40,774 bases of DNA, taken from Anaerolinea sp. Lineage in GTDB: Bacteria; Chloroflexota; Anaerolineae; Aggregatilineales; Phototrophicaceae. The translations under genes were made by a program, and so were the position numbers. Positions 2,674 to 39,317 of this stretch are shown one piece after another. Where the stretch lies: NCBI GenBank assembly GCA_014879865.1, contig JACSRG010000272.1, forward strand, positions 1 through 40,774, written 5' to 3'. Position 1 is the stretch's first letter, and the number at the start of each line of letters is the position of its first letter. The notes below the pieces were generated by a model, which made no database searches, was not told the DNA's origin, and was given only the letters and a program-made list of their open reading frames with translations.

Positions 2674-2780
2674 AACAGCGGCGCTTGAGTAAGGATTACG
2701 AATTCTTACCTGAAACGGAGGAAAGTTGGTTGTATCTCACCATGACCCGTCTTATGACCCGGCGTTTAGCTCATGAATAA
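2674..2780 (+). pseudogene. 3' remnant of an IS5-type DDE transposase
   Basis: In-frame RRLSKDYEFLPETEESWLYLTMTRLMTRRLAHE resembles the conserved C-terminus of IS5-type transposases; it starts just outside the IS3 copy 2 end. Confidence 0.6.
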
Positions 2781-2782
2781 GA

Positions 2783-3949: not shown

Positions 3950-4032
3950 ATCGTTGATAAGACCTTATTTTGGGTAAGGGTAAATTCTGTGCTACTCTAC
4001 CATGAGTCAGATTGGTAGTGGTAGTCGCTTGA

Positions 4033-5199
4033 ATGCCGTCCAAACCCAAGATTCTAATTCTGGTCAATCATTATCTACCCGGATTCCATTATGGAGGACC
4101 TACTCGCTCCATCGTCAATCTGATTGAATGGCTAGGAGATGACTTTGATTTTTTCATCCTCACAAAGGATCGCGATCTAAACAGCAACGTCCCCTACCTC
4201 ACCATTAGCTATGGAAAATGGAATGCTGTGGGAAAAGCACACGTGCGCTACCTAACCCCGCAAGAACAGCAGCTAACGAACCTAGCGCGAATATACCGCC
4301 AAATCGACTATGACAGTCTTTACCTCAACGTTGTCTTTTCAGCGCTCACGATCGAAACACTATCTCTATACCGTACCGGTTTGTTGCCTAGAAAACCCGT
4401 CATCCTTGCTTCACGAGGCACCTTGAATCCTTCAGCACTTAATCTGAAGTCCCGCAAAAAGAGTTTTTTTCTTGATCTCGCACGCAAAACTGGTCTCTAC
4501 AAAAACCTTGTCTGGCACGCAACCAGCCCCGAAGAAGTTATAGAAATCCAGAATGTATTTGGCAGCAAGATAGCAAACCAAGTTTACTGTGTGGAAAATC
4601 TCCCCTCTCCTATTCCACAACTCGCTACTAGGGTTTCTGTCAACAAAATACCGGGAACTGCTCGCATTGTGTATCTATCCCGAATTGATCCGAAAAAGAA
4701 CTTACACTTTGCACTTGAGTGCTTAAGCCAGATAGAAAAAGACGTGGAGTTCGATATCTATGGACCGATCAAAGACGAAAAATACTGGCAAGAGTGCCAG
4801 CTCGCTATTCAAGCTTTACCATCCAATATCCGAGTAAATTACATGGGCGCGGTAGATTTGGATGCTGTAGCTGATGTGTTGCAACAGTATCACCTTTTCT
4901 TTCTGCCTACACTCAACGAGAATTTTGGACACACGATCCTCGAAGCGTTGTGCGCCGGGTGTCCTATCTTGATTAGCGATAGAACACCATGGAAAACAAA
5001 CAAGGTTCAATCCATTGGTTGGGTGTCACCTTTGGAGAAACCGGAATTATTTGTAAACTCAATATGTGAACTGATCGATATGGATACAGAAGCATTTGCT
5101 GCATTATCCGAGAACGCGCGTGATTTTGGACGCAACTACATAAACTCCTCAACTTCGGTTGAGGATATGCGCAAATTCTTACACGATGTTTCAATGTAA
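4033..5199 (+). CDS. Glycosyltransferase family 4
   Basis: NHYLPGFHYGGPTRSIVNLIEWL, YLSRIDPKKNLHFALECL, FLPTLNENFGHTILEALCAGCPILISD. Confidence 0.9.
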   Translation: MPSKPKILILVNHYLPGFHYGGPTRSIVNLIEWLGDDFDFFILTKDRDLNSNVPYLTISYGKWNAVGKAHVRYLTPQEQQLTNLARIYRQIDYDSLYLNVVFSALTIETLSLYRTGLLPRKPVILASRGTLNPSALNLKSRKKSFFLDLARKTGLYKNLVWHATSPEEVIEIQNVFGSKIANQVYCVENLPSPIPQLATRVSVNKIPGTARIVYLSRIDPKKNLHFALECLSQIEKDVEFDIYGPIKDEKYWQECQLAIQALPSNIRVNYMGAVDLDAVADVLQQYHLFFLPTLNENFGHTILEALCAGCPILISDRTPWKTNKVQSIGWVSPLEKPELFVNSICELIDMDTEAFAALSENARDFGRNYINSSTSVEDMRKFLHDVSM

Positions 5200-5236
5200 T
5201 TTCTGATTCTTCGCGACAAACACGAAGGAAAATTGA

Positions 5237-22844: not shown

Positions 22845-23981
22845 TTATTCATAATAGATTATTACCTGCAATAGTGCACTTATCGGAATGCGCTCTTGCT
22901 CTAACCTAAGATTGCGCTCCACCAACCAGCGATACAACCGTCGTTCTTCTTCATCGAGTTCCGGCAAATCGATCAAGGGTGCAGGCGTCCCCTCGACCAC
23001 ATACTCGGCGTAAGCATCGAAAGTCGTTCGATCCATCAATACCGCGCGAATGACTGCCGTTGGCAGTGATCGACGCAGCAGCGCCAAAATCTGAAACCCT
23101 TGTGCGTCCAGATCGCCCCAGTAGTACAGCGGACATTCAGACAACCATCCGACCTGCCCTAGCTGCTCTACTGCAAACCCCTGACCAAAAATTGCAAACG
23201 TCTCCGGGAGCATCGGCAGGCGGAGGAACGGCAATTTGTTCTCGACGATCAAACCGCGCTGCGATCGCAGATTTAGCTGGTTCAAATCCGGTACTGGCAA
23301 ACTGATGTCGGTCAGTGCCAACCCAAAGCGACTCTCAAGCTGATTGTCCAGCAGTCGTATCCGCACCAAGGGCGCATCTTCGTGCAGACCAAACCGTCCA
23401 GCGAAGTGACTTGCTTCCGACTCCCCCTGCCCCGGTGACAGCAGCGCGTCGAGCAGTTCGCGCAAGATACGTTGGTGGGTCTCGACGAACTTTGTATGCA
23501 CCGGGATCGGCAGTTCACGCATCGACAGCGCGGGCTGCGGATGCTCCTGAAAGTAGGCGCATACTTCGAGCAGCGCATCCCATTCGCCGTGATGAACGAT
23601 CACCTTCAGCGGTGAAGCGATCATCCACGCCTCTAAAGCCGGGACGCGCTGGCGGATCAGCGAAACGTCATTGACGAAAGCCTCATATTCGGCTTGTTTG
23701 TCGATGAGGCGCAGGAAAACATCGGCGCTATCCACCCACACAGCGCGCGGTACCGACTGCTTACCCCACTGCCGAAACGTACGAGTCTCGCGCTCGATGC
23801 GGCACCTTTCCCTTTCAAGCGGATCGAGACGCGCCGCCGCCGCGCGCAGTTCGCTGAACTGCTCAGGGAGTTTCCCGACCCGGACTGACAGCGCCGTGAA
23901 AGGCTTGTTCTCAAGCAACTCTCGCAGAAAAGTCTCGTAGTGGCGTGCGAATTTTTGCCGCACCGCATCGGGCGTCAACAT
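22845..23981 (-). CDS. jetD: Wadjet protein JetD (DUF3322/DUF2220, Toprim-type nuclease)
   Basis: WGKQSVPRAVWVDSADVFLRLIDK, LIVENKLPFLRLP, IFGQGFAVEQLGQVGWLSECPLYYWGDLDAQGFQILALLRR, LMDRTTFDAY; last gene of the jetABCD order. Confidence 0.92.
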   Translation of the reverse strand: MLTPDAVRQKFARHYETFLRELLENKPFTALSVRVGKLPEQFSELRAAAARLDPLERERCRIERETRTFRQWGKQSVPRAVWVDSADVFLRLIDKQAEYEAFVNDVSLIRQRVPALEAWMIASPLKVIVHHGEWDALLEVCAYFQEHPQPALSMRELPIPVHTKFVETHQRILRELLDALLSPGQGESEASHFAGRFGLHEDAPLVRIRLLDNQLESRFGLALTDISLPVPDLNQLNLRSQRGLIVENKLPFLRLPMLPETFAIFGQGFAVEQLGQVGWLSECPLYYWGDLDAQGFQILALLRRSLPTAVIRAVLMDRTTFDAYAEYVVEGTPAPLIDLPELDEEERRLYRWLVERNLRLEQERIPISALLQVIIYYE

Positions 23982-23987
23982 GGATGG

Positions 23988-26900
23988 CTATCGGGGCGCT
24001 GACTGCGTATTTTGTTCATATTCGGCGCGCTGCGCTTGATATTCTTCGACGGTCAGGTTGCGGATCCGTGACTCATTCCCCTCCATGTTATTGACCACAT
24101 AGTGATAAGCGCCGACGTAGTGTTCGACCACCGGAATCTTGTCCAGTGGCGTCACGACGAGCAGTTGCAGCCCAAGCCCTCTGAACAACTCCATAGCATA
24201 TCGGGCATTGGCGTCATCGACCTTGCTGAACGCCTCGTCGATCATCACGAAGCGGAAGCTCTGCCGCGCCGGAAGCTCATTGATTGCGTACTGGTATGCG
24301 ACCGCCGATGCCAAAATGGTATACGCCAGCTTGGCTTTTTGACCACCCGACATCCCCGCCGAGTCGCTGTGATACCGCCGCTGGCTGTGATCATCGCGCC
24401 ACAATTCCTCGGCAGCGAAGTTGAGCCAGCGCCGCACGTCAGTGACCTTTTCCGCCCAGCGTTCATCGGTTTCAAAGCGCCGGATCAAAGCCCGGATGCG
24501 CATAAACGCCGCCTCGTTCGCGGCAGCATCATTCCCGACCGTGTTTTCAGTGCAGTCGCGTAGTTCGGCACGAAACGCGCTGATCTCCGGTTCTTGCGTT
24601 AGCTCATAGCGAAGTTGAATATAGACCGAAGTCTCATACGGAATATGCACCAGCGAACTATTCAAGCGGTCAATGACATCGCGGTAGGTATCCACCTGCC
24701 GTTCGAGATCGGCGCGGAAGCCCGCGATATTGTCGATCATCTTCTTGTCCAGCAGTTCTTTGAACCGCCGCTCGAACCGGGGCAAATCCTCACTCTGGAT
24801 ACGTTTGAGCAAATCCTCTAAACCCGGCAGCGCGGCTAAACCACTGCCGATGCTTTCCGTTTCTGCCCTGAATTCTGAGCGGAAATTGGCGATGCGTTCG
24901 ACCAGCGACTGCTCAACTTTGGCGCGCTGATTCTGGTACGTCTGCGCCCGGTTAGAGAAGTATTGACGCATGCGGTCTTGCGCTGAACCAACGTTGTCGA
25001 GACTGAGCGGATCACGGATCAGCTTTTCCAACTCACGATGTATGACTTTCCCCTCTGTTTGCCACATTTCCACCGGATGCTCGCGTAACTCAGCCTCCGC
25101 CTGTTCCAACTGGCGCTTATGCCGGGACAGATCGCTGTTACACGTGCCGATCACCGAATTGAGCCGGTACAACGTATCTTGAAGGTCTTTAGCCTCTTCT
25201 TTCAGCGCATCATGCTGCTCTTGGAGCGTGCGGCGGCGATCTGAACTCGCCTCAAGTCGGCGCTGCTCCTCGATATTCGCTTCATACGCTTGCAGCGGAG
25301 TTCGCCAATCAATCTCTTGGAAGTCTTCAAAGCTCAAGAACTTCCGAATATTATCCTGCCGGGTCTGCGCCTGCCGTTCCCCCTGCTGCGCCCGTTGACG
25401 TTCCCCTTGCAGCTTTTCGATCTCCCCTTGTAGACCCTTAAGCTGTGCGCGCAGCGATTCGAGCTTAACGCGGTTGTCCCATCCTAAAACGTAGCGCGAA
25501 TAATCGCGGATGTTGTACCGGTCATCCTTTTCGTAGCGCGTTTCATCATGCTTGATCTGACCTTCAACGGTGATCCCGCGTCTCTCATGATGCAGTTCGT
25601 CAAGGCTCGCGCAGCACACGTAATCGAACTTCCGGCTGATCTCCGTGCGCAGCCACTCGCCAAACGTGGTATCAGGATGAACTTCAACCTTGCGGTAAAC
25701 AACGTTTGTGGGCAGGCGGGAAAGATTCACAGGGGATGTTTCCTGCACCCGCTGATAGACCAACCTCCCATTGAGGTGATGGTCATTCACATAGCGGCTT
25801 AAACGGGCATAAAAGCGCGACTCGACCAGCAGATTGAGCGCAAAGCCATGCAACAACCGTTCAATCGCCCCTTCCCACGCCGCCTCTTCTTCGCGCACGC
25901 GCAGCAGTTCGCCGGCAAAGGGCAGCGCATTCGCGTCAATTTTCAGCGCGCGCGCCACCTGTTCGCGGATTTCTAGACTCACGCGGGGAATTTGCGTGCG
26001 CCGCTGTTCCAGCGAAGCGATGTCAGCCTCAAGTTCCTTCAACGAGTTCATGCGCGGAGTAAGCTGTACAATCGCCCGGTCTGCATGTTTGCGCGCTTCT
26101 GCCTCAAAATTGATCAACTCAGGCAGTTCTGCTTCTGCCTGCGCGCGGTTGGCATGAAAACTCGCCGCGTCGATGGCTTCGCCCAAGCCGACATCCTCGG
26201 CGGCTTCCGTATAGCGGCGTGCCTTCTCTTGCTTTTTATTGCGCTCCCGACTTAAGTCTTGAGCCTCATCCTTGAGCCGCTGAAGCGCGCGCCCGATTTC
26301 ATCTGCTTCGAGTTCGGCGCGCAACCGGCTGATCTGGCTGTCGGTTTTCTGTTTCTCTGCCTCAAACTGCTGAAAACGCGTCTGATGTTCAGCTAAATCG
26401 ACCTGCACTTGCTTCATTGCCACAGTCAGCAGTTCGTATCGCTGATAGGCAAAATAGAGCGGCAGCACCCTTTCACAGCGCGTAGTCTCTTCGATTTGCC
26501 CATCAATCTGCTGCCAACGAATCGACTCATCGTGGATCGGCAGCAGTAGATCGCGCTGCCGCTGCGCCTTCAAAATCGCTTCGTGTGCTTTGGTCAAATT
26601 CTCGTAGTTATCGCGCAATAGCTGGATTTGCTGCTCGATGTTCGTTCGCTCCAGCATGTGATCGCGGACAAACTGATTCAGGCTGCCAATCTCTTTGATC
26701 GACACGGTTTGATTGAACAATTCGAGCGCCTTTTCCGAGCGCAACCCCAGCAAACCACGAAATTTACTGCTGTAGTCGTTGAATTGGTCGTTGACCTGTA
26801 CGCCTAAACCGCGCAGACGTCGCCGCAGCGCATTTAGCGTCTCAAATCCCGCAAAGTGTTCTTGAATTGAGAGTGGAATCGACGCTGTGAAGTAATCGAC

Positions 26901-27311
26901 CTTCGCCCCACCCTCGGTAAACACCTGTGCAATCGTGACGAATTCCGGCTTTGCCCCCGGACTATGAAAGACCGCCAGCAGCACACTGTAATTGGTCTCA
27001 TCGCGTAAGTACTGCACCTGCCCATCATAGCCGCTTGCCTCGCGCAGGCGGCTGTACGCGCCCCGGACATAGCTTTTGATCGACCGCTCCCGGCGGTTAT
27101 CACCCGACGCTTGGTTATAGCTGCGCTTTCTGCCCGGCACCAGCAGCGAGAGCATCCCATCGACCAGCGTCGATTTGCCCGAACCATTCGCGCCCGTCAG
27201 CAGTGCCGTGAACCGCTCTGGCGCAATCTGCCAGATACGCTTGTCGAACGTTCCCCAGTTATAGACCTCGAACCGGTACAGTGCGTAGCCTGCCTCAATG
27301 GGTTCAATCAT
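23988..27311 (-). CDS. jetC: Wadjet protein JetC (SMC/MukB-like ATPase); probable start at 27311
   Basis: Walker A TGANGSGKSTLVDGMLSLL; long coiled coil; signature SGGQKAKLAYTILASAVAYQY; Walker B FRFVMIDEAFSKVDDANARYAMELF. Confidence 0.95.
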   Translation of the reverse strand: MIEPIEAGYALYRFEVYNWGTFDKRIWQIAPERFTALLTGANGSGKSTLVDGMLSLLVPGRKRSYNQASGDNRRERSIKSYVRGAYSRLREASGYDGQVQYLRDETNYSVLLAVFHSPGAKPEFVTIAQVFTEGGAKVDYFTASIPLSIQEHFAGFETLNALRRRLRGLGVQVNDQFNDYSSKFRGLLGLRSEKALELFNQTVSIKEIGSLNQFVRDHMLERTNIEQQIQLLRDNYENLTKAHEAILKAQRQRDLLLPIHDESIRWQQIDGQIEETTRCERVLPLYFAYQRYELLTVAMKQVQVDLAEHQTRFQQFEAEKQKTDSQISRLRAELEADEIGRALQRLKDEAQDLSRERNKKQEKARRYTEAAEDVGLGEAIDAASFHANRAQAEAELPELINFEAEARKHADRAIVQLTPRMNSLKELEADIASLEQRRTQIPRVSLEIREQVARALKIDANALPFAGELLRVREEEAAWEGAIERLLHGFALNLLVESRFYARLSRYVNDHHLNGRLVYQRVQETSPVNLSRLPTNVVYRKVEVHPDTTFGEWLRTEISRKFDYVCCASLDELHHERRGITVEGQIKHDETRYEKDDRYNIRDYSRYVLGWDNRVKLESLRAQLKGLQGEIEKLQGERQRAQQGERQAQTRQDNIRKFLSFEDFQEIDWRTPLQAYEANIEEQRRLEASSDRRRTLQEQHDALKEEAKDLQDTLYRLNSVIGTCNSDLSRHKRQLEQAEAELREHPVEMWQTEGKVIHRELEKLIRDPLSLDNVGSAQDRMRQYFSNRAQTYQNQRAKVEQSLVERIANFRSEFRAETESIGSGLAALPGLEDLLKRIQSEDLPRFERRFKELLDKKMIDNIAGFRADLERQVDTYRDVIDRLNSSLVHIPYETSVYIQLRYELTQEPEISAFRAELRDCTENTVGNDAAANEAAFMRIRALIRRFETDERWAEKVTDVRRWLNFAAEELWRDDHSQRRYHSDSAGMSGGQKAKLAYTILASAVAYQYAINELPARQSFRFVMIDEAFSKVDDANARYAMELFRGLGLQLLVVTPLDKIPVVEHYVGAYHYVVNNMEGNESRIRNLTVEEYQAQRAEYEQNTQSAPR

Positions 27312-27903
27312 TATCGGCACGCTCCCCATGTTCCGCCAACCGCTGCTTGATCAGCTCAAGCTGATCCGAATCGATCTTGGCTTTCAAGACCGGTCGCACC
27401 AAATAGTCGATCTGCTTCTCGCGCTTGATCTCTTTCAGAAAGCCGAATTCAACCACCTGATTGAGGTCGCGCTCCATAAGCTTCAAACGGGCGCGTTCAT
27501 CTTCTTGCTGCGCGTAAAACGGCTGCATGATCGTCAGCAACGCTTCTCTCGCAAGGATCAGGCGGTAGTTATCGACGTCCGTTGTATCGAACTGATTCAA
27601 CTCCTCCCGCAGCAAAACCAGCAGCACCGTGACCGAATAGCTCAGCGCGCGCCGGCGCACCAAGCGCGGCAAAGGCGCGGTGATGCCTAACTCCTCCTCA
27701 TCCGGCTGCGTCAGATAAGCGAAGCCCTCATTTTCGTTCAGATAAAGCTGCACGCCCATTTGCGTGAAATAAGTGCTGATCGGCGTCTGGTAGCGCAGGA
27801 CAAGCCCCCACACGTCATCATCCGCATACACTATCCCTTGTAGAAGCCGGATGAGCGCCGCCGCGTAAGGGCTGGGTCCTTCTCGAATATCATCTTGAGT
27901 CAT
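27304..27903 (-). CDS. jetB: Wadjet protein JetB (DUF4194)
   Basis: LIRLLQGIVYADDDVWGLVLRYQTPISTYFTQMGVQLYLNENEGFAYL; sits between jetA (4-nt overlap) and jetC. Confidence 0.92.
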   Translation of the reverse strand: MTQDDIREGPSPYAAALIRLLQGIVYADDDVWGLVLRYQTPISTYFTQMGVQLYLNENEGFAYLTQPDEEELGITAPLPRLVRRRALSYSVTVLLVLLREELNQFDTTDVDNYRLILAREALLTIMQPFYAQQEDERARLKLMERDLNQVVEFGFLKEIKREKQIDYLVRPVLKAKIDSDQLELIKQRLAEHGERADND

Positions 27904-29345
27904 GGTCGATAGTGTCCGTAAACAATATGCGGAAGCCGCAAACGTAACTTACTGGTGCCGTCGGTGAGCGTAAGCGCGATCTCGTCATAACGCTCGGTAT
28001 CAATCTGGTGCTGTGGCGACTCGTCGGCGATTTGAAGATATGCCAGCAGTTCCGCCACCCCCTTCCCCGGTGGATAATGCTCCAATACTTCGACCAACGA
28101 AACGGACGGGGATTTTTCCAGCAGTCGTGCTAATTGTTCGCGCAGCAGATCAAGATCGACATAAAACTGAGCATACAGCGCCTGCAATGCGCTTAAATCA
28201 TCTTCCTCTCCGACCAGCAGATCGGGAGCATCCACTTTTGTATTCAAACCGGGACTCCACAAGGGACGATCCATGATCACGCTGATATCCGGCGCAGTTT
28301 CAAGCACGAAGAACGCGCCTTCCGGTGGATGTTGGCTATGCTCAAAGGCAAGCTGCTTGATCTCCGCGCACAATGCGCGTACTCGCTGATTCTCGGCAAG
28401 GGTCTGCTCGTCAAGCATGCGACGAAGCTGTTCGGAAAGCTGCTGGTTCGAAGCGATCACTTTTTGTCCGGCATCCAACAGGCGTCTTGTCAGCGACGGA
28501 AGGATCGAGGAGTCACGCAGCGCGGCAAGTTCCGGCAGCGCATGAATCGCCCTGATCAACTCTGCCAGTTCGTCCTTTTGCGCCGGGATCAGCAAATACT
28601 GCCAGAAAGCGCGAAAGCTCCGCCCCTCGTCAGACGATTCGAGCGCCTCGTCCGCATCCAACACATCACCCAGTACGACGCCTCTTTGAACATTCGGACG
28701 CAGAGTCGCCTCCTGTGTCTTCCGCGCTAAATCCCGGAAATTCTGCTCCACAGCGGCGAAGTCGCTTAATAGGCGGACAGCATTTTCATTCACCTGCAAG
28801 AATCGCTCGCGTATCTGCGTTTCGTTGTAGCGCTGCACCCGCCCTGTCGTCTCGATTGCGTCGATCTCGCGTTGCAGCGCCGCCTGCTGTGCGCGCAAAA
28901 ATAGCATACGCTGTTCCGGGTCTTCTGTACTGTTCGCGATAATCTCGCGCAGTGTCTCGAAAATACTGCGGAAGCGTGATTCAGTGCCAACAAACGGACG
29001 CTGGCGTAGTTCTTCAAACCACCGGATCACGCGCTCGGTTTCGGACGTGAGGTCAACCATCCACGCGTTTTCCGTACCGGCATAGATGCGCAGCAGCCTC
29101 AGCTCCTTGCTCCACGCATCAAGATATTCCTTTGCGGAACGCGGAAAACTGCCCGGTTGTTGTTCATTCAGCCGATCCAGCATGGCATCTAAGTTACCCA
29201 ACAGTTCGTCGTATGGAACAGTGACTCGCTGCTGCTGTTTGAACTGCTCGTAAAAGAAGCTGACGATCAGCGGAGCGTGCTGCTGGCGCAGAAGTTTTAA
29301 GCTGGGGCTGTTCTCCAAATCAGACTTGATCTGCGCGAAATCCAT
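27900..29345 (-). CDS. jetA: Wadjet protein JetA (DUF3375)
   Basis: SLKLLRQQHAPLIVSFFYEQFKQQQRVTVPYDELLGNLDAML...YLDAWSKELRLLRIY...; first gene of a four-gene operon in canonical order. Confidence 0.92.
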   Translation of the reverse strand: MDFAQIKSDLENSPSLKLLRQQHAPLIVSFFYEQFKQQQRVTVPYDELLGNLDAMLDRLNEQQPGSFPRSAKEYLDAWSKELRLLRIYAGTENAWMVDLTSETERVIRWFEELRQRPFVGTESRFRSIFETLREIIANSTEDPEQRMLFLRAQQAALQREIDAIETTGRVQRYNETQIRERFLQVNENAVRLLSDFAAVEQNFRDLARKTQEATLRPNVQRGVVLGDVLDADEALESSDEGRSFRAFWQYLLIPAQKDELAELIRAIHALPELAALRDSSILPSLTRRLLDAGQKVIASNQQLSEQLRRMLDEQTLAENQRVRALCAEIKQLAFEHSQHPPEGAFFVLETAPDISVIMDRPLWSPGLNTKVDAPDLLVGEEDDLSALQALYAQFYVDLDLLREQLARLLEKSPSVSLVEVLEHYPPGKGVAELLAYLQIADESPQHQIDTERYDEIALTLTDGTSKLRLRLPHIVYGHYRP

Positions 29346-29495: not shown

Positions 29496-30194
29496 ATGCC
29501 GAGAAGCATTTACCGCAGCACACCACTGCTGCTAGACCAAGTCCTGCATCCACCCGGAGCTTCGCAGCGCGAAAGCGTTATTCCCGTCGATTCTCCGGAG
29601 TGGTTTCGATGGCTGGAAACAGGATCACGCTTCGCTTACCGGCTTGAACTCGCGGGCTGGCGTCCACACACGATCACCTTCCGCTCGGAAAAGAAGCAGC
29701 GCGGCGGCACGTACTGGTCAGCGTACATGAAAGATCAGCTCGGAAAACTGCATAAGCTCTACGCGGGCAAACTGGCGGAGCTAACTTGGGAGCGCATCAG
29801 TCACATCCTCGACGCTATGCGCGAGAAACTGACAGCCGCCGCCCCAACTTTAAGTTACCCAACACATCCGGCTGCAAAAGAGAAACAAGCAGCGGGCAAG
29901 CAGACACAAACACTACCGGCTTTGACCGCCCAAGATGTCGCGCAATTTCACCGCTATGATGCACTGCTAACTTTTTGCAGCGAGGCTTTCGAGCAGCGCT
30001 GGGGGCACGCTTGGCGCTGGGAAAACGGCAAGATTTACCGCAACACCTTCGACAAGTACTACTACGTGATGGATCAATCCGGCGAACAGAAGCATATTCT
30101 AGGAAAGCAGCGCTATTTCGTTGTAGTTCAGCTGCTGCATTGGGTAAATCACGGCTACGATGAAGGGTACAATGATAAGTTATCCAACACGTGA
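29496..30194 (+). CDS. Hypothetical protein with a putative integrase-arm/AP2-like DNA-binding region
   Basis: SPEWFRWLETGSRFAYRLELAG...ITFRSEKKQRGGTYWSAYMKDQLGKLHKLYAGKLAELTWERI resembles N-terminal regions of Chloroflexota LuxR/MalT-type regulators and integrase arm-binding domains (recalled, not searched). Confidence 0.6.
   Translation: MPRSIYRSTPLLLDQVLHPPGASQRESVIPVDSPEWFRWLETGSRFAYRLELAGWRPHTITFRSEKKQRGGTYWSAYMKDQLGKLHKLYAGKLAELTWERISHILDAMREKLTAAAPTLSYPTHPAAKEKQAAGKQTQTLPALTAQDVAQFHRYDALLTFCSEAFEQRWGHAWRWENGKIYRNTFDKYYYVMDQSGEQKHILGKQRYFVVVQLLHWVNHGYDEGYNDKLSNT
29851..29865. repeat. Fourth exact TAAGTTACCCAACAC site, inside the orphan ORF
   Basis: ctttaagttacccaacacatcc; encodes LSYPTHP in an Ala/Lys/Gln-rich linker. 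Confidence 0.9.
30176..30190. repeat. Fifth, one-mismatch site TAAGTTATCCAACAC at the 3' end of the orphan ORF, 15 bp before the recombinase ATG
   Basis: gataagttatccaacacgtgaggaggcgacgatg. Confidence 0.8.
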
Positions 30195-30204
30195 GGAGGC
30201 GACG

Positions 30205-31062
30205 ATGCTCGAAGAATTCGAACAACATCTGCGCGAAGAACTCGACTTATCCGACAAGACCATCCGTGCCTACCTCTCTGATGTACGTCAGTTCGGGCAG
30301 TGGTATGAGCGATGGGCAGACCGCGCCTTCATGCTCAAAGATATTTCTACCCCTACCCTCACTCGCTACCGTGCCAACCTTATCGAACGCCTCAAGCCAG
30401 CTAGCATCAACCGCCGCATTGTCAGCCTCAAGCGCTTCTTCGCATGGGCAGTCGCTACGGGCATGATCGAGCGTGACCCGGCGAAACCGCTCCGGCAGAT
30501 CAAAGACGTTCCACCACCACCGCGCCACCTGACCGACCAAGAAGAAGCAGCACTGATGTCCGCAGTTAGCAAATACGGCACCAACCGCGACGTTGCCCTG
30601 ATTACGCTGATGCTGCACACTGGCATCCGCACCGCCGAACTCTGCGACCTGACCCGTGCCGACATCAAAATCGCTCCTCGGAGCGGCACAATCACTATAC
30701 GCAAAGGCAAAGGCAGCAAGCGGCGCGAGATACCGCTCAACATCACCGCGCGCACCGCTCTCAACGCCTACCTGCCCGACCTAGCAAGCGATGCCGCTTA
30801 CCTGTTTCCCGGCAGGAATAACCAGCGCCTCACCGAGCGCGCGGTCGGCTATGTCATCGCCAAATTCGCCCATCTCGCCAAACTGAAAGACCTCAGTCCG
30901 CATGATTTGCGTCATCGCTTCGGCTACCGCATGGCAGAAAACACGCCGATCCACCGCCTCGCCCAGCTCATGGGACACGACTCGGTCGATACCACCCTAC
31001 TCTACATCGGCGCGACCGCTCAAGACCTTCAAGCTGAAGTGGACAAAATCGCGTGGGAGTAG
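30205..31062 (+). CDS. Tyrosine recombinase/integrase (XerC/XerD-like)
   Basis: N-terminal SAM-like domain FEQHLREELDLSDKTIRAYLSDVRQF; catalytic HTGIRTAELCDL, SPHDLRHRFGYRMAE, LMGHDSVDTTLLYI; ATG at 30205 with GAGGAGG upstream. Confidence 0.93.
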   Translation: MLEEFEQHLREELDLSDKTIRAYLSDVRQFGQWYERWADRAFMLKDISTPTLTRYRANLIERLKPASINRRIVSLKRFFAWAVATGMIERDPAKPLRQIKDVPPPPRHLTDQEEAALMSAVSKYGTNRDVALITLMLHTGIRTAELCDLTRADIKIAPRSGTITIRKGKGSKRREIPLNITARTALNAYLPDLASDAAYLFPGRNNQRLTERAVGYVIAKFAHLAKLKDLSPHDLRHRFGYRMAENTPIHRLAQLMGHDSVDTTLLYIGATAQDLQAEVDKIAWE

Positions 31063-31071
31063 GCTAGATTT

Positions 31072-31800
31072 CTAAGAAACCTGCCCTACCTGCTTCAACA
31101 GTTCGTGGATTTGTATCATCAACGTGTTGATTTCCCGCTCATGCTGTTCTTGAAGCTGTTTGATGGATTTCTCTTGTTCTGCCTGAACCTCCATCAGCTC
31201 TCTGCGAAGCGCCCTTACTTCGTCTTGGAGTACCTCAATAGTCAAGAGATAGCTCTCTCGCCGCTTACTTGAGATTCTCGCACTTTGCTCGAACTGTGTT
31301 ATTTGCGCCCGTTGACGATCTATAACAGCTTGCATCTCATCTAATGTTATGGGGTTTGGGGGCGAACTTTGGTGCCTAAAAGTCTCGCTAGAAGAGCTCG
31401 CTTGTGAAGTCGAAGAACTTTTGACAGTGTCAAAAGCCGCCGCCTTTTTAGCAAGTTGATCTCGTTTTACCTGAGCCTTATAAACGACTTGAGCAACCAA
31501 TTCATCACTGTCATTTTCAAACCAAGAATACACTTTTCGATAAACGGTTTCGCTGTAACGAAACCATTCTTTTCTATTTGGAAGGCTGTGAGCACCAACA
31601 GCTCGAGTTTTCGCCAAAAGCAAAGCTTCTAACTCAAGCGCCTCTATTTCATCAATACACGCAATGTGGCTTGCAAATCGCATGTGTAAGGCAGCAATAC
31701 GTTGTTTTGGGCGATTTGTTTTTCCGATCTTGAAGATCTGAATGTCCCTAAGTTCCCCTACAGCCAAGTAAACAAAGCTAACCATCAGCTCTCTTTTCAC
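31072..31800 (-). CDS. GIY-YIG/T5orf172-like nuclease-domain protein with long C-terminal coiled coil
   Basis: VYLAVGELRDIQIFKIGKTNRPKQRIAALHMRF, ALELEALLLAKTRAVGAHSLPNRKEWFRYS; heptad-rich C-terminus. Confidence 0.72.
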   Translation of the reverse strand: MKRELMVSFVYLAVGELRDIQIFKIGKTNRPKQRIAALHMRFASHIACIDEIEALELEALLLAKTRAVGAHSLPNRKEWFRYSETVYRKVYSWFENDSDELVAQVVYKAQVKRDQLAKKAAAFDTVKSSSTSQASSSSETFRHQSSPPNPITLDEMQAVIDRQRAQITQFEQSARISSKRRESYLLTIEVLQDEVRALRRELMEVQAEQEKSIKQLQEQHEREINTLMIQIHELLKQVGQVS

Positions 31801-32398
31801 CTAAGCGATATTTTAACTCTGCAATTTGTGTGCGGAGTTCGCTGAGCTTTTCCTCGTACTCTCGGACAAGCCTAATCGACTCTGAAGTCATTTCACGAAC
31901 AACTACATCGCGATAATCACGTTCTTCTCGGATTACACGAGCTTCTACTTTACTAAGCGCTTGTTGCAGCTCGGCGATCTGGGCACGTTGTTCTTCTTCT
32001 ATCTCTCGTAGTCGAGTGATCTCTGTTTCCAACTCTGCTACTTTCGCAAGCGCGTGATCTCGCTCTGCCGAAGTAATCAGCGCTCGTGCAGACTGCTCCA
32101 CTTGATGCATTGGCACTGTGCGAGGATCGGCGCTAAGAGCATTTTGAGGAAACTCTTCAGCCCGCTCACCTGCATCCAGCGCGTCTGCAATTTCCTTCCA
32201 ATCCACAACACCTTGTGCGCGTTTGATTCGGATTGTGTTTAGCACGAGGAGATCAGATTGCGTCAAGATGCGCTGCGCAGAACCGTCCTCCATACGCGCG
32301 CTTGACGAAAAGAAACGAGATAACTCAGGATGTTGTGTCCAGTTGTAGATAGTGTTTCGATCCACTCCTAGGATTTTCGCAGCTTCTCCGGACCTCAC
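31778..32398 (-). CDS. MerR-like HTH protein with C-terminal coiled coil
   Basis: MRSGEAAKILGVDRNTIYNWTQHPELSRFF HTH; AELETEITRLREIEEEQRAQIAELQQALSKVEAR coiled coil; overlaps the GIY-YIG gene by 23 nt. Confidence 0.75.
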   Translation of the reverse strand: MRSGEAAKILGVDRNTIYNWTQHPELSRFFSSSARMEDGSAQRILTQSDLLVLNTIRIKRAQGVVDWKEIADALDAGERAEEFPQNALSADPRTVPMHQVEQSARALITSAERDHALAKVAELETEITRLREIEEEQRAQIAELQQALSKVEARVIREERDYRDVVVREMTSESIRLVREYEEKLSELRTQIAELKYRLGEKRADG

Positions 32399-32649
32399 CT
32401 TATGACTCCAATCTGATTTCGCTAAACCTCTGAATCTGAATTCTTGCTTTTGTTCCTTGAATGGCGTATTATACTTTTAAGTGCCGATTTATTCAAACAA
32501 GTTTATGAAAATCAGCAACCGGATTCACGTATTCACATTCTAAATCGACCCATTTATATAAACGAGATATAAAACTCGTGCTTTCCAGCCTATTCAGACT
32601 GCTTTCGCGAATCATAACTCGATTTAACCAGAATGGAGAAAAACCGCCA

Positions 32650-33816
32650 ATGCCTCCAAAAGCTGCAACATCCGACTCGTTAGTTGACGAAAATTTCATC
32701 TCTTCCGACGCAGGAAACGGTTGGGCAGCCTGCTACCGGCTGGTCAATGGCAAGGTGAAACAGCACGGCATTCCGCACGCGCGCGCCCGGGTCACCGGGG
32801 CAAAACTGGATACCGATATAGGCGCGCAGAACACCGCCGACTACGCCGATTTTATGGGGCAGCGTTATGGCTACGGTGATGGTATCTGGAACTTGACCGA
32901 CGCGCCCATCGACCTGCACCAGAACACCGCGCGCCGCTACGGCGGGAACATGCACATCTTCTTGATGCTGGTCAACATCGCCGAGATGAACGTTAAATCC
33001 GGCAGCGAGCTCACGCTCATCGTTCCAGCGCCACCCGGCTTACTGAACGAAGTAGGACCGCAAATCAAAAAATCCATCCTCGCCGGGGAATCCGGGAAAA
33101 ACGACGGAGTCTGGTCCATTCAACTGCGCAAGGACAAGAAGCCGCGCGAATACAAGTTCATCCGCGTGATTACGCTGCCGGAAGGGGCAGGAGCCGTCGC
33201 CGCCTACCGTTTCAACCTTGCCGGCGACCTCGTCGATCTCAAGGACAAAAGCGGCGGAGACATGCTCGCCGGGCGCATCGCCGTGCTTGACCTTGGCGCA
33301 GGTACGGGCGACACCTACACCATCTTCAACGGCAATCTCAACCCGGATGCCATCGCTACGGCAACTGACGACAAAGCGGGCGTGATTCACAACCTGCTCC
33401 GACCCATCCTCAGCGATGTGCTGAGCGCCGTTCCCGAAGCCCGCCACCTGACCACCGCTCATATCGACAGCTACCTGCGCCGCTACATCGCCAATCCAAC
33501 CCCCGAAGCCGCCACCGTGCGCGTCGCGGGCAAAAATGTCAACTTCGAGAAAAGCATCCTTGCCAACTGCGAACGCTATGCTGAATGGATCGGTGCCAAC
33601 AAGATCGATCCCCTCTGGGCGGCGGGGACAGACGCGATTGTCCAAGCGGGCGGCGGCTGGATTTACATTCAATCGTGGATCAGGAAATGGTACCCGGAAC
33701 GCCTCATCCTGTCGCCGGAAATGTTCCCACATACGCGCAACATGCCGCTCTATGACCTGAACGGCATCGGACAGCTTTCGTTTGCTGCCGCGATCATGCG
33801 CCAGCAGCAGCCGTAG
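32650..33816 (+). CDS. Actin-like ATPase, ParM/Alp-type
   Basis: Phosphate-1 SSDAGNGWAACYR, phosphate-2 AVLDLGAGTGDTYTIFNG, adenosine motif QAGGGWIYIQSWI; ATG at 32650 preceded by GGAG. Confidence 0.82.
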   Translation: MPPKAATSDSLVDENFISSDAGNGWAACYRLVNGKVKQHGIPHARARVTGAKLDTDIGAQNTADYADFMGQRYGYGDGIWNLTDAPIDLHQNTARRYGGNMHIFLMLVNIAEMNVKSGSELTLIVPAPPGLLNEVGPQIKKSILAGESGKNDGVWSIQLRKDKKPREYKFIRVITLPEGAGAVAAYRFNLAGDLVDLKDKSGGDMLAGRIAVLDLGAGTGDTYTIFNGNLNPDAIATATDDKAGVIHNLLRPILSDVLSAVPEARHLTTAHIDSYLRRYIANPTPEAATVRVAGKNVNFEKSILANCERYAEWIGANKIDPLWAAGTDAIVQAGGGWIYIQSWIRKWYPERLILSPEMFPHTRNMPLYDLNGIGQLSFAAAIMRQQQP

Positions 33817-33828
33817 GGGAGGAAAACC

Positions 33829-34224
33829 ATGCAGCGTTCTCAAACTCAAAAGCCGGGGAATGGCGAAGGGCAGGGCGGGGCGATCAGCCTCGTCTTCGAC
33901 CTCTCCGATCCGCTGGAGCGCGAAGCCTACGAGATGGCGAAACAGCTTGCCCGACCGCATGGACGCCGCAAGCATGTGATTGTGGCGCTGCTTTACGGGT
34001 TGAGCATGTATCAACGTCGCACTGGCATTGAGTTGAACACTGATTTGGTGATGGGGATGGCGGTTTCCGGTAATCTTATCGGCGGGGGCGGGCTGGATAT
34101 CTCAGCCACTTCACGACCAATGACCCTTGATGAGCCAACCGTCGTGATCGCCACCGCCGAGAAGGGGACTAAAGAAGAATTCGCCGCGAACTTCTTCTCT
34201 AGCTTCGGAAATTTCTTGGATTGA
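33829..34224 (+). CDS. Small protein downstream of the actin-like gene; possible segregation adaptor (ParR-like position)
   Basis: 131 aa, 12 bp after the actin-like stop; ISLVFDLSDPLEREAYEMAKQLARPHGRRKHVIVALLYGLSMYQRRTG. Function inferred from position and size. Confidence 0.55.
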   Translation: MQRSQTQKPGNGEGQGGAISLVFDLSDPLEREAYEMAKQLARPHGRRKHVIVALLYGLSMYQRRTGIELNTDLVMGMAVSGNLIGGGGLDISATSRPMTLDEPTVVIATAEKGTKEEFAANFFSSFGNFLD

Positions 34225-34668
34225 TTACAGTCTTATCTGGACGCGCCGGACGAGCGCCAACCACATACGCTGACTCATTCGTACAGGCAGTAGCATCACT
34301 CCAGCTACTGCCTGAAAGCCGCCACCCTCACGTTGAACCCCCGCCACCACTCCCAGCACTTGATCCGCGGCGACGCTTTCGGCGCGCCCGAACGACGCAT
34401 CTCCACGAACAAGATACGTAGAGCAGGGGGCATAACGCACCGCGACAATCCGGTGAACAACGGCGCGTCCCTGCCGGTCGCGGTACAAAATCACGCTGCC
34501 AACCCGCAGCTCGTCGGCGCGATGCAAGCACACGCGCAGCGTATCACCGTCTTGAATCGCGGGGGACATGCTGCTTCCCCGCGCGCAGAATTCCAGCACA
34601 CCGCCACGACTAAGCACCTCTTCCGCCAGTGCCAGAAACGACGCTTGATCGATCTTCAACGTGTGCAT
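34225..34668 (-). CDS. S24/S26 (signal peptidase I-like) family peptidase
   Basis: FCARGSSMSPAIQDGDTLRVCLHRADELRVGSVILYRDRQGRAVVHRIVAV: SxMxP serine motif and RxVVHRIV region. Confidence 0.8.
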   Translation of the reverse strand: MHTLKIDQASFLALAEEVLSRGGVLEFCARGSSMSPAIQDGDTLRVCLHRADELRVGSVILYRDRQGRAVVHRIVAVRYAPCSTYLVRGDASFGRAESVAADQVLGVVAGVQREGGGFQAVAGVMLLPVRMSQRMWLALVRRVQIRL

Positions 34669-35513
34669 CGTACAAGGTCGATGACGTCTGAGTCGGGGAC
34701 GAAATGCAGACTAGAGCAGGGGACTTTTCTCGCCAGCGCGGTCATAAAATCGATCGTATAAACCGTCGCCGCCGTGTTCCAAATGACGGGAAAACAGCGC
34801 GTCAGCAAGCCTGCGACAGCGGCGCTGCCATCCACTGCATTGACCACATTCTTCGGCGCATGATACAGAAAAAAGATGCGTTCCAACTGGACACGCTCCG
34901 GTCGAAATTCGGGAAACAGCCCGTGCCACGGAGTGCCGTACATCCAGACCGCGCCATCTTCGACGCGCAAGATGATCCGGTCATCATTCAATACCGCGCC
35001 TTGTCCACTCTCCGTCCACAACCGCGCCAGCGTCGATTTACCGCTGCCCGAACTCCCGCTAAACAAATACCCGCGTCCGTGATCATCCACGCCGCACGCA
35101 TGCATCATGACCCCGCGCCCCTGCGCTAGCAGCAGCACGGTGAGCAGTTCCGGGAGAGGGTGGGGGATAGGGCTGTAAGCGAGTTTCGTCAGATATAGAT
35201 TGCCTTGACTGAAATCCGAGGAGAATACGCCGGTCAAGTGTGGCAAACCGGATTCTTCATGCACGCCGAGCGTGATGACCTGCTGATTGCCGACTCCGTA
35301 CAGCTTCCATACACCACCGGAGTCAAACAGCAGTTTTGCATTCCCTAAACACACCGGCGGCTCAATACCATAATGCACATTGAGGTGACAGTCAGCAGGT
35401 TTATCGGTGAGGAAGCCGCGAAATTGGCGCGATACCCAATCCTCGTCCAGCGGGAGATCGCTGGTGATTTCGATGACAATCCCCGCGATTTCGACAGCGA
35501 CAGACGTGATCAT
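34656..35513 (-). CDS. HPr kinase/phosphorylase-like P-loop protein
   Basis: GYLFSGSSGSGKSTLARLWTESGQGAVLNDDRIILRVEDGAVWMYGTPWHG; ATG at 35513. Confidence 0.8.
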   Translation of the reverse strand: MITSVAVEIAGIVIEITSDLPLDEDWVSRQFRGFLTDKPADCHLNVHYGIEPPVCLGNAKLLFDSGGVWKLYGVGNQQVITLGVHEESGLPHLTGVFSSDFSQGNLYLTKLAYSPIPHPLPELLTVLLLAQGRGVMMHACGVDDHGRGYLFSGSSGSGKSTLARLWTESGQGAVLNDDRIILRVEDGAVWMYGTPWHGLFPEFRPERVQLERIFFLYHAPKNVVNAVDGSAAVAGLLTRCFPVIWNTAATVYTIDFMTALARKVPCSSLHFVPDSDVIDLVRCTR

Positions 35514-35523
35514 GCCATGTCTC

Positions 35524-35703
35524 TCACGATCCCATATCAAAGCACTGGAAGAATCGCCCGCAAAACTCGCCAACCCACGCGTTGATCAACCCATCATTTG
35601 CTTTACACACCGCGAGTACGGCTTCCTCTGGCACCAGCCGCACTTTGCCCAACTGCGGCTTTTCATACATCCGTCGTGACTCTTGCGCGTTAAGTTCATT
35701 CAT
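35524..35703 (-). CDS. Candidate RiPP precursor peptide, 59 aa: MNELNAQESRRMYEKPQLGKVRLVPEEAVLAVCKANDGLINAWVGEFCGRFFQCFDMGS
   Basis: Small ORF between radical SAM and HPrK-like genes; GGAGA Shine-Dalgarno before ATG at 35703; YxxPxL leader motif (YEKPQL); three Cys; C-terminal Ser. Confidence 0.7.
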   Translation of the reverse strand: MNELNAQESRRMYEKPQLGKVRLVPEEAVLAVCKANDGLINAWVGEFCGRFFQCFDMGS

Positions 35704-35711
35704 TCGAAAGC

Positions 35712-36791
35712 CTAATCTCCAAACTCTATGAGACGTCGCCCCGCAAGCGCGCACGCCGACGGGACAAATGCCTCAGCATCCCCATAGTGCATCTGCGCCA
35801 TGCCCGGACACTGCCCGCAGATCGCGCTCAGGTCGCATAGCTGGCACGGCGACTCCCGCGTGCGCTTCTGGAAGCGCGCCCGGCGCAAAAAGTCGTCCCA
35901 ACCTTCCTGAAACGATCCCTGACGCAGGTCGTAAGCAGGTTTACGCGCCATCAGGCACAGGCTCAACTGACCGTAGGCGTCGATATGAAAGCTGTGGATA
36001 CCCGCACCGCACAGAAACACCTCATCAGCACGGGTAGGAACGCGCCGGAGATCGCGCACAATCCGCCGGTACTCCGCCGCGCGCTGCTCATCCTCACGAT
36101 CCAGCACGAGAATCTCATCAATCGAAATGCTGCTGTCGAGCGGACGCGGATCGCCATCCAAGCGCGTATTCAGCACCGGATCGAAACGGTATGGAATGCC
36201 GAGATCCGCCGCTAACGCCTTCATCGCCGCGAGATCATGTCGATTCTGCTTGAGCACCATGCTTTTGAATTTGAGCGGCAGTCCGTGCGCCCTGACCATC
36301 CCAATGGCGTTCAAACAGCGTCCGAACGCGCTTGTGCTGCCGGTGACCCGTTCATAGGTCTCCACGCTTGCACCGTACAGCGTGATCTCCATCGAGTAGG
36401 GGGGGTATTCTGCGAAGCACTCAACCGCTTCTTCGGTGAGCAGCGTGCCATTGGTGAATACCGTGACGAGCAAACCGAGCCGCTTGGCATGGAGGTAAAT
36501 GTCCAGAAAATCGGGACGCAGCAGCGGTTCACCCCCGGTGATCAGCAGCTTGAGGCAGCCTGCCGCAGCGACCTGATCGAGCACATCGCACACCATCGCC
36601 GTATCCATTTCACGGCTGCGAATATCCCGATCTCCGGCAGGCTGGTTGATGTAGCAGTGAACGCAGCGCAAATTGCAGCGCTCGGTCAATTCGAGCGAAC
36701 CACTCAAGGGCAAGCGCGCCGAAGCCAATTTAGCAGCGAGGCGCTGACCAAATTCGCTTAACGAGAGCTCGGGTAGGGTAGGGCAGTTCAC
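35712..36791 (-). CDS. Radical SAM/SPASM protein
   Basis: ELTERCNLRCVHCYINQ (CxxxCxxC), ITGGEPLLRPDF, C-terminal SPASM-like C...C...CQLCDLSAICGQCPG. Confidence 0.93.
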   Translation of the reverse strand: MNCPTLPELSLSEFGQRLAAKLASARLPLSGSLELTERCNLRCVHCYINQPAGDRDIRSREMDTAMVCDVLDQVAAAGCLKLLITGGEPLLRPDFLDIYLHAKRLGLLVTVFTNGTLLTEEAVECFAEYPPYSMEITLYGASVETYERVTGSTSAFGRCLNAIGMVRAHGLPLKFKSMVLKQNRHDLAAMKALAADLGIPYRFDPVLNTRLDGDPRPLDSSISIDEILVLDREDEQRAAEYRRIVRDLRRVPTRADEVFLCGAGIHSFHIDAYGQLSLCLMARKPAYDLRQGSFQEGWDDFLRRARFQKRTRESPCQLCDLSAICGQCPGMAQMHYGDAEAFVPSACALAGRRLIEFGD

Positions 36792-37129
36792 TGGACGATT
36801 TCCTCGACCGCACCCACTTCGACGAGCTGCTGTAGGAACTCCAGCAAATCGATCTGCGCGACGGCTTGTTCGACGGCAAACTCTCGAACAAGCCTATCGC
36901 AGATCGTGTCGAGGCTGTTGTGACCGTCAAGCTGATCCCAAATGCACGCACCGACTGCGTTTAACGTGTAAATGGCATGCATATCCGCGCTCGTGCGTGC
37001 AATCGGCACGAGCAGCGCTTCATCCGCGATCTTGCGGAAAACGACTGAATGAGAACGTAAATACCGAGTAGTGGGTAGCGACGATGAATTCATGAGATGT
37101 ATTCTGTCTAACTCAAAGATAGTTGTCAT
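36788..37129 (-). CDS. PqqD-family (RRE) protein; start may be 37093
   Basis: VVFRKIADEALLVPI...HAIYTLNAVGACIWDQLDGHNSLDTICDRLVREFAVEQAVAQIDLLEFLQQLVEVGAVEEI; 4-nt overlap with the radical SAM gene. Confidence 0.9.
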   Translation of the reverse strand: MTTIFELDRIHLMNSSSLPTTRYLRSHSVVFRKIADEALLVPIARTSADMHAIYTLNAVGACIWDQLDGHNSLDTICDRLVREFAVEQAVAQIDLLEFLQQLVEVGAVEEIVQ

Positions 37130-37238
37130 GATTATCTTATAGTGTAATTAAGCGAAAAAGTGATAGATGTTATACTGCCACTATGACTATTTATTTTTTA
37201 CGAATCGAGCATATGATAGCTTCTACCGCACGATATCA

Positions 37239-38369
37239 ATGAGCACTCAAGACAACACACGCCTTACGCTAACTCATCTTATCGCCGGAGCGTTGAACCC
37301 CGCAGACATCGCCGACGACCAGTGGGATTTGCTCGCTCCGGCAGCACTTGCCGACGGCTTAGCCCCAATGCTGATCCACGTACTACATCAGCACGATTCA
37401 ACGCTGCTTCAACTGCCGATCTTTCGCCCGCTGCTCGCCGACGCTCAACTGGTCACATATCATGTGGCACAGCTTCAAGCCGTGCAGGAGAAGATCGAAA
37501 GTGTGCTCACCGCGCGGGGGATTACGCGCATCTGGCTCAAGGGGATCGCGTTGGCGCAGACCGTTTATCCTGCACCCAACTTACGCTCGATGAGCGATCT
37601 CGACTTCTTCATCCCCTACGAATGTAGAAGCGATGCCCTCACTGCGCTGAAAGACGCAGGCTTCCGCAGCATCGACAGCCATGAACCTGCCGCCGAACTG
37701 CTCGCCGCACAGCATCATGATCGCCTGATGGACGTTTACAGCCGGGGCTTCATCGAGATGCACTATCGTTTATTTGGCGGGGACGTACTCGCCGATGCCG
37801 CTGAAGCATGGTTTCGCCGGCAAGTCTATGTCACCCCGCACGGCTGGGCGGCGCTGACGCCCGAAGCGCAGCTTTTGCACCTGTGCATTCACCATGTGCT
37901 GGTGGACTTCGATCAGAAGCTCCGGCTGGTCCGCTACTTCGACATTCATCTACTGGTGAGTGCCGGAACGCTGAACTGGGAGGTGATCCTGCGCACAGCC
38001 GAGCGCTTCGGCTGGTCGAACGCACTTGCTTACGCGCTGGAGAAAGTATCGTACTGGTTCGGGACGCCTATCCCCGCGCATATCAGCGCGCAGTTGGAAG
38101 CTCAAACCGATGGGCGCAGATTGACGCCGGGCAAGCTGGCACGCGGCGCTGATGCTGCCGGAGCTGACGCCGCGCTGCACCTGTTACAGGCAAGTTCTCC
38201 AACGGAACGCCGGGCGCTGCTGCGCTGGTTCTTGCTGCCACCGGGGGACTATCTGCGCTGCCGCTACCCTGATTATGCGTATCTGCCGATCTGGGCGCTG
38301 TATCCGCTGCGCTGGTCGCTGCAAGCAATCAAACTTGCCAGACTGCTCCTCACACGCTTCACGCTGTAG
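37239..38369 (+). CDS. Nucleotidyltransferase-like protein (NTP_transf_5 type)
   Basis: GITRIWLKGIALAQTVYPAPNLRSMSDLDFFIPYE: LKGxxL and RxxxDLDxxI motifs typical of the family; divergent from PqqD. Confidence 0.8.
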   Translation: MSTQDNTRLTLTHLIAGALNPADIADDQWDLLAPAALADGLAPMLIHVLHQHDSTLLQLPIFRPLLADAQLVTYHVAQLQAVQEKIESVLTARGITRIWLKGIALAQTVYPAPNLRSMSDLDFFIPYECRSDALTALKDAGFRSIDSHEPAAELLAAQHHDRLMDVYSRGFIEMHYRLFGGDVLADAAEAWFRRQVYVTPHGWAALTPEAQLLHLCIHHVLVDFDQKLRLVRYFDIHLLVSAGTLNWEVILRTAERFGWSNALAYALEKVSYWFGTPIPAHISAQLEAQTDGRRLTPGKLARGADAAGADAALHLLQASSPTERRALLRWFLLPPGDYLRCRYPDYAYLPIWALYPLRWSLQAIKLARLLLTRFTL

Positions 38370-38437: not shown

Positions 38438-38872
38438 CTATTCGTTTTCAGATCGGATAATCTCCTCGACCACTGTCTCTGGCGTGACAATCCGCAAACC
38501 AGATTTCTGGGCAACCTCAACCGGATCAATCAGATGTTTCCGGTCATACGTGACCAGATAATCGACCTGAGCTTGCTGTGCTGCTGCCACAATCGGCGCG
38601 TCTTTCTGTACAACATAGGACTCAACCTCGCGAACAGCCTCTAGGGAAGGGTCAGCTACGAGCTCAGCATTGATCAACTTGAGCAGCAGTCTATAACTCT
38701 CAAGTTTATCAGGAGCTTTGCGCGTGATATTGCGTTCCACTTCGGTGAGAACATCACTGCTAACCACCGCTTGCACTCGATTTTGCACAGCTAGCACAAG
38801 CAAATCTCGCGCATAGCCACCGGCGGAATAGGCTGCCGAAAACAGCACGCTGGCATCAAGAAAGACTTTCAT
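38438..38872 (-). CDS. PIN-domain toxin (VapC-like)
   Basis: MKVFLDASVLFSAAYSAGGYARDLLVLA...DVLTEVERNI...DAPIVAAAQQAQVDYLVTYDRKHL. Confidence 0.85.
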   Translation of the reverse strand: MKVFLDASVLFSAAYSAGGYARDLLVLAVQNRVQAVVSSDVLTEVERNITRKAPDKLESYRLLLKLINAELVADPSLEAVREVESYVVQKDAPIVAAAQQAQVDYLVTYDRKHLIDPVEVAQKSGLRIVTPETVVEEIIRSENE

Positions 38873-39149
38873 CGTCTATCTTTCGGGCGTACTTCTCTTC
38901 ATAGATTTCCTGCTTGATTTCACGCCCGCTCTCGATGATCTCCTCTAGCGTGATCCCCTTGCTGCGTAGACCCGCGCCAATATCATCTAATAACCGCTGG
39001 AGGAGCAGTTCTTTCGTGCTGATCAACAAACCTTCGTCCGTTTCCTCAAACACAACCTCGTCTCCTGCCTTGAGGTTGTACTTGCGACGGAAATCAACTG
39101 GCAGCGTGACCTGTCCGCTGTCCTGTATCACATAGCGTTTTTTATTCAT
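38856..39149 (-). CDS. SpoVT/AbrB-type antitoxin (VapB-like)
   Basis: YVIQDSGQVTLPVDFRRKYNLKAGDEVVFEETDEGLLIST; overlaps the PIN gene by 17 nt. Confidence 0.87.
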   Translation of the reverse strand: MNKKRYVIQDSGQVTLPVDFRRKYNLKAGDEVVFEETDEGLLISTKELLLQRLLDDIGAGLRSKGITLEEIIESGREIKQEIYEEKYARKIDDESLS

Positions 39150-39317
39150 CTGGAAGCCGCTCCACACACCCTGAATTATGGTTTTATGGAATTATGGTTG
39201 ATCTGTCGGTCAGAGTCAATTCCGCATCAACTAGAACAAAAGAGCGAAAACCATAGTATAATCAAGCGGCTTGACCCGAATGCTTCCGAAGGACAGTTTT
39301 TCTAGAGGAGAATCAGC

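Follow-up and report, generated by a model that had tools for sequence, protein, structure and literature searches.

In a 40,774-nt stretch of Anaerolinea sp. DNA, here called the window, we identified six clustered genes that probably constitute a RiPP cassette. In the proposed pathway, the leader of the precursor peptide (YxxPxL...VxLxxxxAVL) would hold it on a PqqD-like protein; a radical SAM (rSAM)/SPASM enzyme would put in one to three cross-links using C33, C48 and C54; an HPrK-like kinase would phosphorylate the C-terminal Ser59; an S26-type Ser/His/Asp peptidase would cut off the leader near AVLA/VC; and a PF14907 protein might glycosylate or otherwise cap the resulting phosphate. Gene content, conservation, active-site residues and co-variation were observed, and all chemical steps, as well as their order, are inferred. 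Judged by sequence alone, a conserved gene-encoded precursor, a recognition element and an rSAM maturase, as required of a RiPP system, are present; a modified product has not been shown.

More tentatively, and with slightly more doubt than belief on our part, the cassette could represent an uncatalogued RiPP class of at least five phyla, in which an rSAM-cross-linked three-Cys peptide bears a phosphorylated, possibly phosphoglycosylated, C-terminal Ser/Thr and, in numerous lineages, has a functional tie to a gingipain-like C25 protease. If this were true, C-terminal phosphorylation would be a transferable tailoring step used across unrelated peptide scaffolds and not by lasso peptides only. 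The class would also be predictable from sequence in phyla of ecological importance that are largely uncultured (Chloroflexota, Nitrospira nitrifiers, Acidobacteria), and the kinase motif and last-residue rule described below would provide a direct test and sort clusters without chemistry.

Gene content of the cassette

Five genes form a run on the minus strand, in the order PqqD, rSAM/SPASM, 59-aa peptide, HPrK/PEPCK-fold kinase and S26-type peptidase, and the PF14907 gene lies divergently alongside (Table 1). The original prediction had placed six genes here, and all of them were found where it put them. Its spacings held for the 4-nt overlap of the PqqD and rSAM genes, the 8-nt gap between the rSAM gene and the 59-aa ORF and the 13-nt overlap of the kinase and peptidase genes, but not for a 9-nt gap, as the 59-aa ORF lies 10 nt from the kinase ATG (35513). 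The divergent gene is real and spans 37167-38369, whereas the start implied previously gives 37239-38369. The family assignments that had been proposed for checking were borne out in Pfam for PqqD, Radical_SAM and NTP_transf_5 (PF14907), which passed the cut-off, but SPASM, S24/S26 and Hpr_kinase_C gave sub-threshold matches only, and NCBIfam models provided no over-cut-off assignment for any of the six genes. Despite these scores, the SPASM domain was accepted because its cysteines are conserved, the peptidase because its Ser, His and Asp are conserved, and the kinase because its fold matches. The window copy is the version with one rSAM; other loci carry three.

Table 1. Genes of the putative RiPP cassette and their positions in the window
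Feature	Position	Strand	Length	Basis of assignment
PqqD-like protein, stand-alone RiPP recognition element	36788..37129	-	113 aa	PF05402
Radical SAM/SPASM peptide maturase (predicted)	35712..36791	-	359 aa, GTG start	PF04055 and conserved cysteines
Precursor peptide (predicted), MNELNAQESRRMYEKPQLGKVRLVPEEAVLAVCKANDGLINAWVGEFCGRFFQCFDMGS	35524..35703	-	59 aa	Homologues at related loci
HPrK/PEPCK-fold kinase	34656..35513	-	285 aa from ATG at 35513	Active-site residues and fold
S26-type signal-peptidase-like protease	34225..34668	-	147 aa	Conserved Ser/His/Asp; TIGR02228 under cut-off
PF14907 nucleotidyltransferase-like protein	37167..38369	+	400 aa, or 376 aa if the ATG at 37239 is the start	

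The PqqD-like protein matched PF05402 with an E-value of 1.3e-16 (61.1 bits, cut-off 23.4), and the rSAM matched PF04055 above the cut-off (E 2.6e-22). In 33 homologues, the CxxxCxxC cysteines of the rSAM (C39, C43, C46) are invariant or at least 90% conserved, and so are seven others assigned to the auxiliary part (C261, C279, C316, C319, C325, C328, C347). This is the pattern of a SPASM domain with two predicted auxiliary clusters. Among the solved structures nearest to this protein are SkfB, PqqE and a CteB-type enzyme. It very probably cross-links the three-cysteine peptide; with cysteine donors in the core and cluster cysteines in the enzyme both observed, the inferred links would most likely be thioethers.

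The peptidase scored under the cut-off of the NCBIfam model TIGR02228 (E 2.8e-10). Its catalytic set consists of the Ser of GxSM (GSSM), the His of HR (VHR) and a late Asp of GD (RGD), which are kept in nearly all homologues shown. It is an S26-type signal-peptidase-like protein of the archaeal/ER Ser-His-Asp kind and a candidate leader protease.

The PF14907 protein matched NTP_transf_5 with an E-value of 3.9e-37 (128.6 bits, cut-off 31.2) and is a candidate enzyme for modifying the peptide end further once it is phosphorylated. The nucleotidyltransferase of the pseudomycoidin cluster adds hexoses to the C-terminal Ser phosphate (PMC8498205); by weak inference from this analogy, the window protein may glycosylate the Ser59 phosphate or cap it otherwise. 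Two other PF14907 genes occur in the window genome, distant from the cassette (G000:C126:1828-2589 and G000:C776:9106-9795).

Precursor family and its distribution

The members of the precursor family share the leader motif YxxPx(hydrophobic)xxVxLxxxxAVLxxC. In the window precursor, the leader ends near AVLAVC, and C33, C48 and C54 lie in the core. Alignment showed P16, C33 and C48 to be invariant, with Y13, V21, L23, L30 and C54 kept in at least 90% of sequences. The first two cysteines of three-Cys peptides (n=74) are separated by 11-17 residues, the second and third mostly by 4-8. The core closest to the window's CKANDGLINAWVGEFCGRFFQCFDMGS is that of locus L128, CKAIGGIIRAWFGNRCFWFFECRTVGS. 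None of the Pfam and NCBIfam models, including those for ranthipeptide and sactipeptide precursors, matched the family.

The rSAM, used as the query against genome contigs, yielded 35 loci, and further loci came from sampled genomes of Chloroflexota and of the phyla of the Nitrospira, Acidobacteria and Planctomycetota records. With a profile of the short peptides, a homologous peptide was detected beside the enzymes at 91 of 102 distinct loci. Precursors beside related enzymes matched at E-values of 1e-6 to 1e-20, and in a reversed-sequence control the best E-value over 26,184 segments was only 0.51. The conservation of the 59-aa ORF and this control rule out a chance short ORF; on sequence evidence it is a gene, and the lack of conservation beside homologous rSAM genes that would have refuted the original prediction was not encountered. 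Among the same 102 loci, PqqD adjoins the rSAM gene in 97, the order PqqD-rSAM-peptide-kinase is kept in 57, and the kinase, S26 peptidase and PF14907 genes occur in 94, 71 and 34, respectively. Related loci were found in at least five bacterial phyla, among them Chloroflexota, Nitrospirota, Acidobacteriota and Planctomycetota.

Within the family of the window genome, the rSAM was found in this genome only (98 genomes), and a relative turned up in 27 of the 396 genomes sampled from its class. Such patchy occurrence suggests that the cassette may have been acquired by horizontal transfer. The genome that holds the window is a MAG of 937 contigs with about 6% contamination; because of this contamination, and because it is the sole rSAM carrier among the family genomes, more confidence can be placed in the cassette than in its host.

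In one other Chloroflexota genome (G011; L068, L070-L074), several near-identical precursor copies ending in PT[IL]GT were found on separate contigs, most without enzymes adjacent. One of these loci (L073) contains a gene for a class II lanthipeptide synthetase (2653-6003) with DUF4135 and LANC_like domains; a member of the precursor family (6064-6213) precedes it by ~60 nt, suggesting a mixing of modification systems.

The kinase and the last residue of the precursor

When the kinase sequence was searched against PDB chains, the matches were dominated by P-loop ATPases, and its fold was settled by a fold search, in which an AF2 model (pLDDT 95.2) gave PEPCK and HPrK/P as the best folds. The protein scored below the HPrK cut-offs in Pfam and NCBIfam (14.8 of 33.3 bits for PF07475); as modeled, it is related to HPrK/P by fold only and is not a family member at the Pfam gathering score. 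HPr kinase/phosphorylase and PEPCK share with it the fold, the P-loop and the His and Asp-Asp residues, whereas the cassette kinase has its own N-terminal part and a peptide operon context. Its key residues in the window are H138, K159 and D181-D182-R183; in the homologue alignment, H138, G158, K159 and T161 are invariant and R183 is kept in at least 90% of sequences.

A rule which was absent from the original prediction, and is new here, connects this motif with the end of the peptide. Beside canonical kinases (H...GKST...D[DE][RK]), 75 of 75 distinct precursors end in Ser or Thr, comprising 33/33 in the first set, where the rule was formed, and 42/42 in loci fetched afterwards. A further 3/3 precursors from the Planctomycetota sample, two of them near-identical, do the same. 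A second group of kinases (L015-L023, L026, L048, L082, L085, L092, L094, L098, L099, L106), first recognized as a clade in Anaerolineaceae and further Anaerolineae, reads GED[QTSN] where others read D[DE]R, and next to these the C-terminal Ser is not kept. The peptides that nevertheless end in Ser/Thr in this group (5/17) count against the pathway. The peptide beside the one DEY kinase ends in proline (0/1 with Ser/Thr), and that of a locus without a kinase (L025/L096) in alanine.

The entropy of the last residue was 0.56 bits, compared with 2.2-3.8 bits at each of the seven preceding positions (46 non-redundant peptides), and apart from this residue the C-terminus could not be aligned. Since the Ser/Thr end tracks the kinase motif while the rest of the C-terminus is unalignable, the kinase most likely phosphorylates the C-terminal Ser (Ser59 in the window), an inference strongly supported by co-variation and backed by no assay. 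The association of kinase motif and Ser/Thr end was significant (Fisher p = 1.8e-10), but this test ignores descent. Tree-based independent contrasts offered only 1-2 pairs and were without power because the tree shows only about two losses of the canonical motif.

Co-variation, however, reveals linkage and not a reaction. The rSAM and recognition steps could be right and the C-terminal Ser/Thr could still be a recognition tag (for the protease, an exporter or kinase docking), with the kinase phosphorylating another site or another protein. In the GED branch, the second and third residues following the first Cys are Ser/Thr in most peptides (C-x-[ST]-[ST]), which makes another phosphorylation site possible there, perhaps a moved one. 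We regard a mere tag as unlikely, as only Ser/Thr is accepted under canonical kinases, with the kinase tree requiring at least four switches between the two but none to a residue that lacks a hydroxyl, and as the constraint on the end fades once the kinase motif changes. Moreover, the assayed lasso kinases PadeK, ThcoK and SyanK carry out exactly this reaction: they need His, Lys, Asp and Asp, act on the linear precursor, where they phosphorylate the hydroxyl of the C-terminal Ser, and are largely indifferent to the remaining peptide sequence (PMC9266682, PMC8498205). H138, K159, D181 and D182 of the window kinase, together with Ser59, match these requirements.

Relation to known systems and genomic neighborhood

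Phosphorylation of the C-terminal Ser, our preferred reading of the kinase step, links the cassette to lasso peptides. Clusters of the paeninodin and pseudomycoidin type likewise have a precursor with a C-terminal Ser and a YxxPxL-type leader, a PqqD-like (B1-like) partner, an HPrK-homologous kinase with His-Lys-Asp-Asp and, in some clusters, a nucleotidyltransferase (PMC9266682, PMC8498205). This might be taken to indicate a lasso-like pathway with the cyclase encoded elsewhere. However, neither a B2 protease nor a C protein (asparagine-synthetase-like cyclase) was detected among the neighboring genes scanned, in agreement with the original prediction. In addition, each of the lasso-precursor models matched a single family member at an E-value of only 0.06-0.08, neither the three conserved cysteines nor the obligatory presence of a neighboring rSAM is a lasso feature, and an S26 peptidase is present where lasso clusters have a B2 cysteine protease. 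A lasso pathway was rejected on these grounds, and a cyclase located elsewhere appears highly improbable. The original reading of a RiPP pathway with a peptide, PqqD, rSAM/SPASM, kinase and S26 peptidase, and without a lasso cyclase, was thus supported, although the enzyme chemistry is unproven.

Ranthipeptide and sactipeptide systems (CteB, PapB, SkfB) resemble the cassette in their rSAM/SPASM maturase with intact auxiliary-cluster cysteines and in a Cys-rich core, and SkfB and a CteB-type enzyme, as noted above, belong to the solved structures nearest to the window rSAM. Unlike them, the cassette has a separate PqqD protein, a C-terminal Ser kinase and an S26 peptidase, and thioether bonds have not been shown. 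By analogy, it may work like a ranthipeptide/sactipeptide pathway with an added paeninodin-type kinase step, the chemistry being inferred.

A mix of PqqD-like protein, rSAM/SPASM and HprK-like kinase is also found in SynChlorMet, to which the cassette had been considered related. Scores in NCBIfam were far under the cut-offs (20 of 125 bits for ScmC, 27.7 of 100 for ScmD, 80.9 and 74.1 of 400 for ScmE/ScmF), and Nitrospira and other relatives missed them as well. The distant likeness therefore stands but membership was rejected: the cassette is not SynChlorMet as defined. It has one rSAM instead of two and adds a conserved S26 peptidase and a precursor family. That it is nonetheless SynChlorMet, or a relative catalogued previously (HprK-rel-A/B systems), is quite unlikely, even with the weak matches to the ScmC, HprK_rel_A and HprK_rel_B models, as its precursor is matched by no model. 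A Methanothrix locus (L042) gave a better ScmC match (E 3e-9) and distantly shares the precursor motif; SynChlorMet may thus belong to the same superfamily as a distant branch. A literature search, which was weak in that most subscription papers lay outside it, returned nothing on SynChlorMet, on C25 with radical SAM and RiPP, on Nitrospira PqqD with radical SAM or on Herpetosiphon RiPPs.

C25 gingipain-like peptidases are encoded near 45 of 108 related-rSAM loci (L015, L018-L020, L022, L025, L026, L048, L077-L085, L092-L109 and others). Many carry Ig-like or cadherin-like domains, and their genes frequently come immediately after that of the kinase or peptidase. If the class is real, this recurrent neighborhood is the first clue to its role. 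Some PqqD/rSAM systems produce cofactors (PQQ), and the product here could be a cofactor, or else a partner of an extracellular gingipain-type protease in a maturation or inhibitor system, and not a secreted peptide. We find this rather unlikely, since a C25 gene was looked for in the window genome and none was found, and since the cores, unlike a cofactor, vary strongly in sequence and length, with several precursors per locus in some cases. For the peptide product that we favor, the missing exporter is a point against the pathway: as predicted originally, no ABC exporter was recognized in the window flanks examined. A Pfam tally of 73 neighboring proteins revealed no universal family, and a common exporter or other single obligatory neighbor was discarded. 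At L128, an ABC exporter (ABC_membrane and ABC_tran) is encoded at 3207-4970, beside the kinase gene.

Elsewhere in the window, a complete Wadjet type I defence locus (JetD, JetC, JetB, JetA) occupies 22845-29345. The region 30160-34224, a possible mobile-element segment adjoining the cassette, encodes an Xer/phage-type integrase (PF00589), a T5orf172-domain protein, an HTH coiled-coil protein and a 412-aa protein without a Pfam match, which looks actin/ParM-like and has a 131-aa partner. Directly past the nucleotidyltransferase gene, at 38438-39167, are genes for a PIN-domain toxin and an AbrB/MazE-like antitoxin.
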